Shown here one piece after another: positions 6,804-30,683 of a stretch of 34,597 nucleotides of DNA. Source of the DNA: an uncultured Acidilobus sp. JCHS (lineage in GTDB: Archaea; Thermoproteota; Thermoprotei_A; Sulfolobales; Acidilobaceae). The DNA lies in assembly GCA_000495735.1 (NCBI GenBank), contig AYMD01000010.1, positions 5,286 to 39,882 of the forward strand. Reading direction: 5' to 3'. Below the pieces are notes generated by a model, which made no database searches, was not told the DNA's origin, and was given only the letters and a program-made list of their open reading frames with translations. Position 1 is the first letter of the stretch; each line of letters starts with the position of its first letter. Both the position numbers and the translations under genes were made by a program.

Positions 6804-8261
6804 TTGACCGTGAGCTTTCCCAAGGGCTTCCTCTTCGGCTGGTCCCAGGCGGGCTTCCAGTCAGAGATGGGCACGCCCGGCAGCGAGGACCCCAACAGCG
6901 ACTGGTACGCCTGGGTGCACGACTGGGAGAACATAGCGTCTGGCCTGGTGAGCGGCGACCTGCCCGAGAACGGGCCGGGCTACTGGGGCAACTACCGCAG
7001 GTTCCACGACGCTGCCCAGGCCATGGGCCTGAGCGCCGCGAGGATAGGGGTTGAGTGGAGCAGGATATTCCCTAAGCCGACGTTTGACGTCAAGGTCCAC
7101 GCCGACGTCAGGGGCGAGGAGGTAGTCTCGGTTGACGTAAGCGAGCAGGCCCTTGAGCAGCTCGACAGGCTCGCCAACAGGGAGGCGGTGAACCACTACA
7201 GGGAGATGTTCTCAGACCTCAGGTCTAGGGGCATAACGTTCATACTTAACCTCTACCACTGGCCCCTCCCCCTGTGGCTTCACGACCCCATAGCGATCAG
7301 GAGGGGGAACCTCTCAGCGCCCTCAGGCTGGCTTGACGTCAGGACAGTCGTGGAGTTCGCCAAGTTCGCCGCCTACGTGGCGTGGAAGCTTGACGACCTA
7401 GTCTATATGTACTCAACTATGAACGAGCCAAACGTGGTCTGGAGCCTCGGCTTCACTCAGCCCAAGTCCGGCTTCCCGCCGGGCTACCTGTGCTTCGAGT
7501 GCTCTGGGAAGGCTATGAAGAACCTCCTGCAGGCCCACGCCAGGGCCTACGACGTAGTCAAGTCCATGACCAAGAAGCCCGTCGGCGTGATATACGCCAC
7601 GGCCGACTGGACCCCCCTCACGGAGAGCGAAGCTGACAGGGCAGCCGCTGAGGCGGCAAAGGCCGCTGACAGGTGGGCCTTCTTCGACATGCTCTCAAGG
7701 AGCTCGCCAAGGGACGACCTGAGGGGGAGGCTGGACTGGATAGGGGTCAACTACTACAGCAGGCTCGTGGTCAGGGCAGGCAGGGGCGGCTTCCAGGTGG
7801 TCCCTGGCTACGGGTTCGCCTGTGAGCCCAACTCCGTCAGCCCCGCCGGGAGGCCATGCAGCGACTTCGGCTGGGAGTTCTACCCAGAGGGCCTCTACCA
7901 CGCCCTCAAGGACTACTGGGAGAGGTACCGCCTGCCGCTCATGGTCACGGAGAACGGCATAGCTGACGAGGGGGACTACCTGAGGCCCTACTACTTGGTC
8001 TCGCACGTCTACCGGGTGCACAGGGCCATGCAGGAGGGGGTCAACGTCATGGGCTACCTGCACTGGTCCCTGGCTGACAACTACGAGTGGGCCTCAGGCT
8101 TCAGCAAGAGGTTCGGCCTCCTGATGGTCGACTACGAGGCCAAGAGGCTGTACTGGAGGCCCTCGGCCTTTATATACAGGGAGATAGCCAAGAACAACGC
8201 CATAACTGACGAGGTAGAGCACCTCAACAGGGTCCCGCCCCTGAGGCCTCTAAGGAAATAA
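6804..8261 (+). CDS. GH1 beta-glycosidase (LacS type)
   Basis: A cytoplasmic family 1 glycoside hydrolase closely resembling Sulfolobus LacS over its whole length of about 489 aa. It hydrolyses beta-glucosides, beta-galactosides and cello-oligosaccharides from the non-reducing end. Landmarks are [21 protein letters not shown] near the N-terminus, STMNEPNV with the acid/base Glu (E208 from this start) and VTENGIAD with the nucleophile Glu (E383). There is no signal peptide. I chose TTG 6804 (MTVSFPKGF) because LacS begins MYSFPNSF and a ribosome-binding site lies 7 bases upstream. GTG 6792 (four residues longer) and GTG 6810 are alternatives. It faces the GH12/binding-protein operon tail to tail and would finish the degradation of imported oligosaccharides. 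Confidence 0.95.
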
Positions 8262-28001: not shown

Positions 28002-28145
28002 GTGCCTGCTACAGAGCCCATCAGGGTCAGGAGGGAGACCAAGGAGGAGCTGAACAGGCTGAAGGTTCACCCCAGGGAGACCTACGACGACGTGATAACA
28101 AGGCTCATCGAGGAGTACAAGAGGTGTAAGAGTGCACAGGGCTAA
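28002..28145 (+). CDS. VapB-like antitoxin-type small protein, coupled to tnpB
   Basis: A 47-aa protein from GTG 28002 to TAA 28143-28145. It begins MPATEPIRVRRETKEELNRL, then has KVHPRETYDDVITRLIEE, and ends in a basic tail. This matches small archaeal antitoxin-type proteins (VapB/ribbon-helix-helix-like, 'I-x-V-x-x-E-T-x-x-x-L-x-x-L-K-x-H-P-R-E-T-x-x-D-V-I'), which normally precede a PIN-domain toxin. No toxin follows. Instead the stop overlaps the tnpB start by 14 bases. TATA and GGTG signals are well placed. It may regulate the element's promoter, or be a host antitoxin whose partner was replaced by the insertion. Confidence 0.65.
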   Translation: MPATEPIRVRRETKEELNRLKVHPRETYDDVITRLIEEYKRCKSAQG

Positions 28146-29505
28146 CGCGGCCAAGCTGGCAACAGTTGATGAGGGGGCCGATGAAAGGCTGAGAGGAGTA
28201 AATGAAGCCATAAGGACAGTCACCGTAAGGTCCGAGCAGTTGCCCAGGAGGACTTTCAGAATATTTGTTGAGCTAGAGGGCATGTACAGGAACATGGTTG
28301 AGCAGCTGGTCCTCTACGCTGTGAACAATAACATAACTAAGTTCACCAGGCTTAAGGCTGAGAAGTACCGTGAGGTAAGGTCACTTTACCCTCAGCTGCC
28401 CTCTCACTACGCCTACACGGCCTGCCAGGACGCCGCCGAGAGGGCCCACTCGTTCCTCAGGATGAGGAAGATAGGGAGAGCAAGGAAGGCGTACCCTGAG
28501 GTCAGGAGCGTTAGCATATGGCTAGACGACCACCTGTGGAGGGCCGAGGGCCTGACGTCAGTGAGCCTGGCCACCCACAGGGGCAGGGTCAACGTTTCTA
28601 TTGAGCTTAACAAGCACTTCCTGAGGTATGTTAACAGGGGCTGGAGGCTCGCCTCCGAAGCGAAGTTCAAGCTTGACCGCAGGGAGAGGAGGCTGATATT
28701 CTATCTAGCCTTCAGGAAGGAGGTCAGCGAGTATAAACCGAAGGCCTACATAACGGTTGACGTAAATGAGGACGCCGAGGCGGTACTCATTGATGGCACT
28801 GTCTACCTCCTTGAGACAAACCTGAGCAGGGTGACGCTTGGCTACTACTACAGGAGGAAGAGGGTCCAGGAGAAGTATGACAGGGCCTACGGCCTGGGCA
28901 GCAGGCCAGCGAGGAGGGTGCTCAGGAGGCTGGGCAACAACGAGAGGGTCCTCAAGAGGGAGATAAGGTGGAAGCTGGCCGCGCTGATCGTAAGGGAGGC
29001 CGCCAGGAGGCAGGCCGCCATAGTACTTGAGAGACTAGGGAAGGAGCCAGCCAAGGGCATGATAGAACGTATCAAGAATTCCCAGCTCAGGCACAGGGTA
29101 TTCCAGGCCGCCTTCAAAGGAGTGTAGAGGGCCATAGAGGAGAAGGCAAGGGAGTACGGGGTGCCAGTCATTTACGTTGACCCCAGGAACACCTCAAAGG
29201 TATGTCCAATACACGGCGCTGAGATTATATACGGCAGAAATAGGCACGGCATCTGCTCAAGGGGAGGCGAGACGTGGCACAGGGACGTGGTTGGCTGCTA
29301 CAACCTCCTTCTGAGGGCCCTGGGCGGCGATGGGGGCGCTGCCCCAAGCCGCCTGAGGGCCTTTGTTGCCGTAGATGGGGGCCCCGTGCCGTTGGGCCCG
29401 AAGGAGTCCCATGACCCACCTACCGTTAAGCTCGGTAGGTGGCTAAGGGCTAAGTCCCTACACTCGATCATGACTGATCATAAAATGATTGAAATGAGAG
29501 TGTAG
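28132..29505 (+). pseudogene. tnpB: TnpB RNA-guided nuclease/transposon gene with an in-frame TAG
   Basis: The frame runs from GTG 28132 to the TAG at 29503-29505, about 457 codons, broken once by TAG at 29125-29127 (codon 332). RuvC-like residues are D210 (YITVDVNEDAEAV), E300 (IVLERLGKEPAKG) and D385 (WHRDVVGCYNLL). The zinc-finger Cys residues are in VCPIHG (C358) and GICSRGG (C375). TAG separates D210 and E300 from the zinc finger and D385, so the product is presumably inactive, unless the stop is read through or is an error. The C-terminus (RWLRAKSLHSIMTDHKMIEM) is typical of crenarchaeal TnpB. GAGGTG at 28121-28126 is a ribosome-binding site within the upstream gene. Confidence 0.85.
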
Positions 29506-29539
29506 GGACGAACGGCCTCAGGCCGTGAAGCCTCTTCAC
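29416..29539 (+). ncRNA. Putative omega (re)RNA at the 3' end of tnpB
   Basis: Four perfect stems follow one another across the end of tnpB: CCACCTACCG/CGGTAGGTGG (29416-29442, 7-base loop); GTCCCTACACTC/GAGTGTAGGGAC (29454-29509, 32-base loop); ACGGCCT-C-AGGCCGT (29512-29526); and GTGAAG-CCT-CTTCAC (29525-29539), which shares two bases with the one before. TnpB proteins use a guide RNA made from the 3' end of their gene and the right end of the element. This location and density of structure fit that RNA. The guide would be the flanking DNA from about 29540. Prediction only. Confidence 0.5.
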
Positions 29540-29635
29540 AGCTCAGAGGTCGGGCTCGCAGCGGGAACGTTTCTCCTCATCGGCCTGCGCATATGGTCCC
29601 CCAGGAGGCCTATAATGTTGTCGGAAGCCTCAAAC

Positions 29636-29643
29636 ATTTAAAA
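29636..29643 (+). promoter_or_regulatory. TATA box for tRNA-Trp
   Basis: ATTTAAAA lies about 30 bases before the mature tRNA 5' end, in the usual place for an archaeal tRNA promoter. Confidence 0.6.
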
Positions 29644-29669
29644 GTCTGGAAGGCGTTCACAATTCGCGG

Positions 29670-29747
<78 letters not shown>

Positions 29748-29882
29748 CATCCGGTCTTCCCATTTTGTGTGCAGGGCAGAGCTTTATCCTATGGATATGC
29801 TGGCGCTGGACGCTTATTACAGCGTGTTTTACGAGGATCGTGCCAGGGGCATCGGTGAAATTATTTAGTACCGCTTATCATT

Positions 29883-30683
29883 TTGATCAATAGGCGTTTA
29901 ATTGTGAGGTTGAGGAGACAATACGAGCTTGTTGAGCACTACTTTAGGGAATTTCAAAACAGGGTCCTGAGCGGTGGCGACAGGTTTTCGCTTGAGAGGT
30001 TAGGACAACTGATCATTCAGTCGTTGCTGGACTTAGCAGCGATGCTTGCCGTCAGCGAGGCCGGTAAGAAGCCCGAGACCTACCGTGAACTGGCCCTTTG
30101 GCTCTCTAGGAAGCTTAACCTAAGCGAGGAGCTTAGCAGGTTCCTTATGGGTTTAGCAGGCTTTAGAAACATACTGGTTCACGGCTATGCGGAAATAGAT
30201 GTCTCGATGGAGATGGAGACGTTTAGGGAAATTGTCAATAAGTTACCTGCCGTACTCAATAGGTTGAGGGACGCGGCTGGTAATGACCCAGGCCCTGGCC
30301 TAGTCACTGACGCCCTAGGCAGAGTCTTCGTTAAGCACGGCGTCAAGTACGCGTTCCTCTTCGGCTCAAGGGCCAGGGCCGGCGCTGGCAGAGATTACGA
30401 CATAGCCGTCGTCTTTGAGAGGAGGCCCAGCAACGCCCTTGAGCTAGGCCTGCTGATCGTCGACCTGGCTGAGGCGCTTGGCGTTCACGAGGACCTAATA
30501 GACCTGGTGGACCTCGACGCTGCACCACTAAACATAGTCAAGACAGTGATTGACGAGGGCAGGGTCTTGCTGGGCGGTGATGAGGCCCTTGATCACCTAT
30601 GGCGTAAGTACCTGGCGTACCTGGACGCCAACGAGATGGAGCGCCTCATAGCCCAACGAGGAGGGAAAGAAACGAGGACGTAG
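29883..30683 (+). CDS. HepT-MntA fusion: HEPN toxin and nucleotidyltransferase antitoxin in one chain
   Basis: A 266-aa protein joining two domains that are normally separate genes. Residues about 10-130 form a HepT/DUF86-type HEPN domain with the exact R-x4-H-x-Y motif: R95, H100, Y102 (RNILVHGY). Residues about 140-235 form a MntA-type nucleotidyltransferase with LFGSRARAG (159-167) and RDYDIAVVF giving D171 and D173. In studied pairs MntA adds AMP to the motif Tyr of HepT and so blocks its RNase activity; here that could occur within one polypeptide or dimer. The second residue after GSRAR is Ala rather than the usual Gly. TTG 29883 follows a TATA box (AATTATTTAG, 29859-29868); GTG 29904 is the alternative start. 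The N-terminal half is visibly richer in A/T than the C-terminal half. Confidence 0.85.
   Translation: MINRRLIVRLRRQYELVEHYFREFQNRVLSGGDRFSLERLGQLIIQSLLDLAAMLAVSEAGKKPETYRELALWLSRKLNLSEELSRFLMGLAGFRNILVHGYAEIDVSMEMETFREIVNKLPAVLNRLRDAAGNDPGPGLVTDALGRVFVKHGVKYAFLFGSRARAGAGRDYDIAVVFERRPSNALELGLLIVDLAEALGVHEDLIDLVDLDAAPLNIVKTVIDEGRVLLGGDEALDHLWRKYLAYLDANEMERLIAQRGGKETRT

Follow-up and report, generated by a model that had tools for sequence, protein, structure and literature searches.

The stretch of DNA analyzed here (the window, 34,597 nucleotides of a contig from an uncultured Acidilobus sp. JCHS) carries a gene in which a HEPN domain and a minimal nucleotidyltransferase (MNT) are joined, and the question that it raises is whether this joined form is real and, if so, what such a protein might do. 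Among the predicted toxin-antitoxin modules of prokaryotes HEPN/MNT has been described as the most abundant, and where the two parts are separate genes MntA places AMPs taken from ATP on the tyrosine of the R-x4-H-x-Y motif, blocking the HepT RNase; AMP transfer by a GSx10DxD MntA was demonstrated also for an archaeal two-gene pair (PMC7641770). A sequence-only reading had described the gene as a 'single-chain HepT-MntA'. We found, with exactly the coordinates given there, a single uninterrupted open reading frame of 266 amino acids, running from a TTG codon to a stop codon (Table 1).

Table 1. Features of the single-chain gene and of the tRNA gene upstream of it, in window coordinates.
Feature	Position	Strand	Basis or remark
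tRNA-Trp gene, directly upstream of fused gene	29671..29747	+	shares mobile 1.15-kb block
Single-chain HEPN-MNT gene	29883..30683	+	TTG start codon; alternative GTG start at 29904
HEPN domain (HepT-like, PF01934), residues 16-127	29928..30263	+	Pfam match; fold match to HEPN toxin structures
R-x4-H-x-Y motif: R95 and H100 (predicted RNase residues), Y102 (predicted AMP acceptor)	30165..30188	+	conservation
Short linker with invariant D135-P136	30279..30293	+	alignment; model confidence low at 134-140
MNT (minimal nucleotidyltransferase) domain, residues 149-234	30327..30584	+	PF18765; MntA model
MNT active-site motif G161-S162-x8-D171-x-D173	30363..30401	+	conservation; MntA motif from PMC7641770
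Third MNT acidic residue D207	30501..30503	+	conservation

Both halves of the protein were recognized by domain profiles. The N-terminal half matched the HepT-like family PF01934 with an E value of 1.3e-16 and the C-terminal half matched PF18765 (Polbeta/NTP_transf) with an E value of 3.8e-11, each over the family cut-off. As had been claimed, the HEPN motif is intact (R95-NILV-H100-G-Y102) and the nucleotidyltransferase has both metal-binding Asp residues (D171-Y-D173), together with the G-S pair and the third Asp. The NCBIfam models HepT_toxin (54.2 bits, E 1.2e-14, on the HEPN half) and MntA_antitoxin (52.1 bits, E 4.8e-14, on the MNT half) both missed their curated cut-offs of 60 bits, and the protein is thus a clear HepT/MntA homologue that lies under the naming threshold and is not filed as plain HepT/MntA. 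An AlphaFold model (pLDDT 80.5, pTM 0.49) consisted of a helical bundle, a low-confidence linker at about residues 134-140 and a nucleotidyltransferase fold. Its top PDB matches were chains of HEPN-MNT complexes (7ae9, 7ae2, 7aer, 7bxo, 6m6u, 6m6w and 5yep), and five of these crystal structures (7ae9, 7aer, 7bxo, 6m6u and 5yep) were matched by either half. Because the pTM was only 0.49, the mutual placement of the halves, and with it the reach of Y102 to D171/D173, is not fixed by the model. The window protein therefore shares its two domain families, motifs and fold with the type VII HepT/MntA systems of Shewanella oneidensis (SO_3166/SO_3165) and Thermococcus cleftensis, but it is one chain encoded by one reading frame in place of two adjacent genes, and the spacing from GS to DxD is 8 residues (GSx8DxD) instead of the 10 in MntA.

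The joined form is not confined to this genome. The best relative comes from a genome of the genus that is assembled as a single contig, where the same joined open reading frame is present with 86% identity. Matches at E <= 1e-8 were obtained in 32 of 197 genomes of the same order, about 15 of which had near full-length joined reading frames with 43-86% identity, and a profile search of a phylum sample gave matches at E <= 1e-20 in 43 of 398 genomes. The order of G205 and another family of the class also hold the fused gene, and a 76%-identical fragment occurs in the Vulcanisaeta sp. MG_3 MAG, on a contig that has several frame breaks and may be mis-binned. When the fetched loci were sorted by domain order, we counted 54 uninterrupted HEPN-then-MNT single-chain proteins, which fall into four subfamilies across the Thermoproteota. 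In the HEPN tree the window protein groups with other HEPN-MNT proteins in a set of 27 rows (SH-aLRT 98); the tree gives no firm deeper branching among the four subfamilies, which may go back to one joining or to several. A sequencing error that joined two genes, which the sequence-only reading had named as one of its possible refutations, is ruled out by dozens of homologues built in the same way. In G219 the HEPN and MNT parts looked like two slightly overlapping genes, but this locus proved to be a frameshifted copy. The single-chain form is real and conserved, a slightly unusual version of a toxin-antitoxin type already known, and is present in many heat-loving archaea.

The residues that matter for the proposed activities are conserved. 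Y102 and both DxD residues were retained in all 54 single-chain proteins, D207 in 53, and both R95 and H100 in 50, the exceptions being L007 (H to Y), L020 (H to R), L116 (R to C, with D207 to N in addition) and L117 (R to M). R95, H100, Y102, G161, D171, D173 and D207 were invariant in a ten-sequence alignment across the subfamilies, whose members are 30-34% identical to the window protein. Nei-Gojobori dN/dS between the window gene and its nearest relative (G054) was 0.18 for the HEPN half and 0.12 for the MNT half, and three other pairs gave 0.04-0.15, values that indicate purifying selection on both halves. The other refutation that had been named, an inactive HEPN part, finds no support in the sequence, in which R95 and H100 are kept and RNase activity is predicted. 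For a Legionella pair the RNase site was proposed to lie elsewhere in HEPN, at Gln and Glu with Mg (PMC11586414); the RNA-cutting residues are thus disputed across the HEPN superfamily, and R95 and H100 are predicted RNase residues.

These residues bear on the possibility that the protein is a domesticated nucleotidyltransferase, in which HEPN would serve only for substrate binding or dimerization and the target would be another protein, an RNA or a small molecule. Anantharaman et al. (2013) reported that DUF86 HEPNs are 'occasionally fused to MNT' and that MNT-fused HEPNs are typically without RNase residues, having turned into substrate-binding domains (PMC3710099), and a DPANN MNT-HEPN fusion, cls.004259, occurs in housekeeping contexts (PMC6393860). 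Fusions of HEPN and MNT in one protein were thus known earlier and may include some of the same genes; the window family nevertheless departs from the reported loss, since its predicted RNase residues are kept, and it differs from the DPANN family of housekeeping contexts in being patchy and mobile. Kanamycin nucleotidyltransferase and GlnE/GlnD, to which a domesticated enzyme may be likened, also join a nucleotidyltransferase to a HEPN-fold domain, but they are reported to be without the RNase motif (PMC3710099) and differ in lineage and role. The four proteins that lost R or H while keeping an open frame and an intact DxD would fit domestication. However, R-x4-H-x-Y in 50 of 54 members and in four deep subfamilies is unexpected for a mere substrate-binding domain, and the patchy, mobile and often decayed copies described below are unlike a housekeeping enzyme, so that we consider domestication quite unlikely.

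The fused gene is movable. A 1.15-kb block that comprises the tRNA-Trp gene and the fused gene (window 29514-30654) is 85% identical to G054, where other genes surround it. The tRNA-Trp copy beside the fused gene in G054 (L078, about 7225-7310) has small deletions and was not called by ARAGORN, and an intact tRNA-Trp is present at another site of that genome. In another genome of the genus, G169 (84% complete), no match to the fused gene was found, and its tRNA-Trp locus resembles the window upstream, with similarity that stops just past the tRNA. The homologue search likewise found no fused gene in G037. The gene is present in two of the four genomes of the genus. The different flanks in G054 and the absence from G169 and G037 show that the gene is accessory and movable, with a patchy occurrence. 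As a side observation, the tRNA-Trp gene of the window was the sole near-identical copy found in its genome. A TnpB-like (IS605-type) gene at 28132-29505, split by one in-frame stop (29125-29127), precedes it; the sequences that flank this gene lie close together in G169 (L071), without a TnpB-like gene, and it therefore seems to have been inserted ahead of tRNA-Trp.

Many copies in the family are interrupted by stops or frameshifts or carry deletions. The HEPN half carried the lesions in 10 loci (L006, L019, L022, L048, L049, L052, L053, L056, L127 and L129) and the MNT half in 3 (L017, L026 and L047), a bias that is not significant alone (one-sided binomial p = 0.065) and that comes from lesion classes assigned by hand in partly non-independent loci, several of them from draft genomes. 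With broken copies included, R or H was lost in seven loci (L007, L019, L020, L047, L048, L116 and L117) and Y102 in none. Such a bias toward HEPN, with loss of R or H and no loss of Y102, is expected if HEPN is the harmful part; the excess of decay in the toxin half is suggestive only. One locus points in the opposite direction: in L017 (G063:C1:681590-682144), from a complete single-contig genome, the HEPN motif is intact and a frameshift lies inside the MNT half, which, if real, would free a toxin that should be harmful when expressed and thus counts against our best explanation, given below. The many decayed copies (L006, L019, L022, L047-L049, L052, L053 and L056), and the different neighbors of the gene in two species of the genus, might also suggest a selfish or relic toxin-antitoxin gene that is heading for loss and has no function in the genome of the window. 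We regard this as highly improbable, because neither the window copy nor its nearest relative is broken, and purifying selection acts on each of the two halves.

The order of the domains constrains how the fusion could have arisen. Wherever both genes of a separate-gene relative could be seen (L027, L028, L030, L098-L104, L106 and L107), MNT comes before HEPN, in contrast to the window protein, and the frames overlap or closely adjoin; the separate pairs from the same taxonomic order mostly overlap. Four single chains (L025, L029, L094 and L130) run MNT-HEPN as these pairs do and retain every motif. One of them, L029, falls inside the separate pairs in each of the two trees, and seems to have arisen recently when two overlapping genes were joined. 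An MNT-HEPN operon that loses a single stop codon would give an MNT-HEPN product, as in L029, and such a loss may be the origin of these four fusions; as the origin of the HEPN-MNT family it is ruled out, since the order is reversed. HEPN-MNT would instead require the genes to be rearranged, perhaps through a joining between tandem copies of the pair. The Asp-Pro of the junction (D135-P136) has a counterpart that closes the HEPN frame of L028 and L029 and that lies immediately ahead of the stop codon in L030, all of these relatives being separate-gene or MNT-HEPN forms. Because the junction Asp-Pro is the HEPN frame end in several relatives, the HEPN half of the fused protein appears to be complete.

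From the domains, their conservation and the recurrence of the fused form, we consider it probable that the window protein is a self-neutralizing single-chain toxin-antitoxin of a type VII-like kind. By analogy with the two-gene systems its likely function is that of a self-AMPylating RNase; we infer AMP transfer, RNase activity, dimerization and any trigger, taking the AMP chemistry from these relatives. The N-terminal HEPN half would be the RNase, probably working as a dimer, and the C-terminal MNT half would transfer AMP from ATP to Tyr102, either of its own HEPN half or of that in the partner chain, which would block the RNase site. Homology to the two-gene systems leads us to expect self-modification of this sort by the single chain, in cis or between chains. 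The joined chain would fix a 1:1 supply, new toxin would be modified once the MNT half folds, and the RNase would act only if modification failed or was undone; possible triggers are ATP shortage, AMP removal by a phosphodiesterase, or interference of an invader product with the MNT half. HEPN is translated ahead of MNT, an odd order for a toxin, which counts against self-neutralization. A single chain in which both active sites are kept strikes antitoxin loss from the possible triggers of the toxin, and a thermostable protein of fixed stoichiometry would offer a direct test bed for self-AMPylation, its action in cis or in trans, and de-AMPylation.

From the permanent joining of toxin and antitoxin, the sequence-only reading had argued that release by antitoxin decay is impossible and that the protein may hence be a sensor, possibly in phage defense. 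The first part holds, for joining does exclude release by antitoxin loss. The second does not follow, because the two-gene HepT/MntA already neutralizes by covalent AMP transfer (PMC7641770), so that antitoxin decay does not stand out as the step of release even in two-gene pairs and was never the only route. A sensor or phage-defense role is possible, although speculative, by analogy with CapRel, a fused toxSAS toxin-antitoxin that senses phage (PMC9712102). EzeT, a fused zeta toxin, likewise has toxin and antitoxin in one chain (PMC4826407). The window protein would resemble both in carrying a self-inhibited toxin with its antitoxin, whereas the domains are unrelated, and in CapRel its own antitoxin domain blocks the active site with no covalent AMP transfer.

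In a CapRel-like immune sensor, MNT would hold the HEPN RNase off until a virus product bound and freed it for abortive infection. The CapRel precedent, the joined chain, the patchy and mobile occurrence across the genus and the phylum sample, and the counting of PDC-M05, a nucleotidyltransferase and HEPN pair, among archaeal candidate defense systems (PMC12988326) would all fit such a role. However, we observed no conserved defense neighbors around family members: PaREP1 and ATPase_2 family genes recur near them, and the only directly adjacent recurrent gene among the family loci was a DUF3782/PDDEXK_10 coiled-coil gene that overlaps the fused-gene start in three genomes of one genus, so that we rejected a defense-island setting. 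No relatives were found in IMG/VR, searched with two alignments, or in phage records, and the single plasmid match was a partial MNT on one haloarchaeal plasmid; carriage by viruses or plasmids was rejected on these grounds. PADLOC matches (PDC-S09) were weak and covered the MNT part only, and the alignments showed no hypervariable, ligand-sensor-like insert in the MNT half. The proposed sensor and phage-defense role thus has no direct support in neighbors or viral records, and we consider an immune sensor of this kind unlikely. We would also entertain, as an unlikely extension of the self-neutralizing reading, that the Thermoproteota have a lineage-wide class of HEPN RNases that are permuted, single-chain and self-AMPylating, in which the MNT half would be both antitoxin and sensor of ATP level or a viral product, and the switch would be covalent self-modification, not antitoxin decay.

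Two minor observations concern neighboring and similar genes. At the three loci with the adjacent DUF3782/PDDEXK_10 gene (L083:4617-6820, L089:5281-7094 and L090:6528-8857), that gene is long, coiled-coil and nuclease-like, it is directly overlapped by the fused gene, and the fused gene comes after a very large secreted-looking protein. Elsewhere in the window, positions 605-1383 hold a separate HEPN (PF05168) and MNT pair, HEPN first, with a 19-base overlap. This pair had been taken for the separate form of the same module; however, its HEPN is without R-x4-H-x-Y and belongs to another HEPN/MNT class. A second MNT, similar to that of the pair, lies just upstream of the window (G000:C10:4700-4870).
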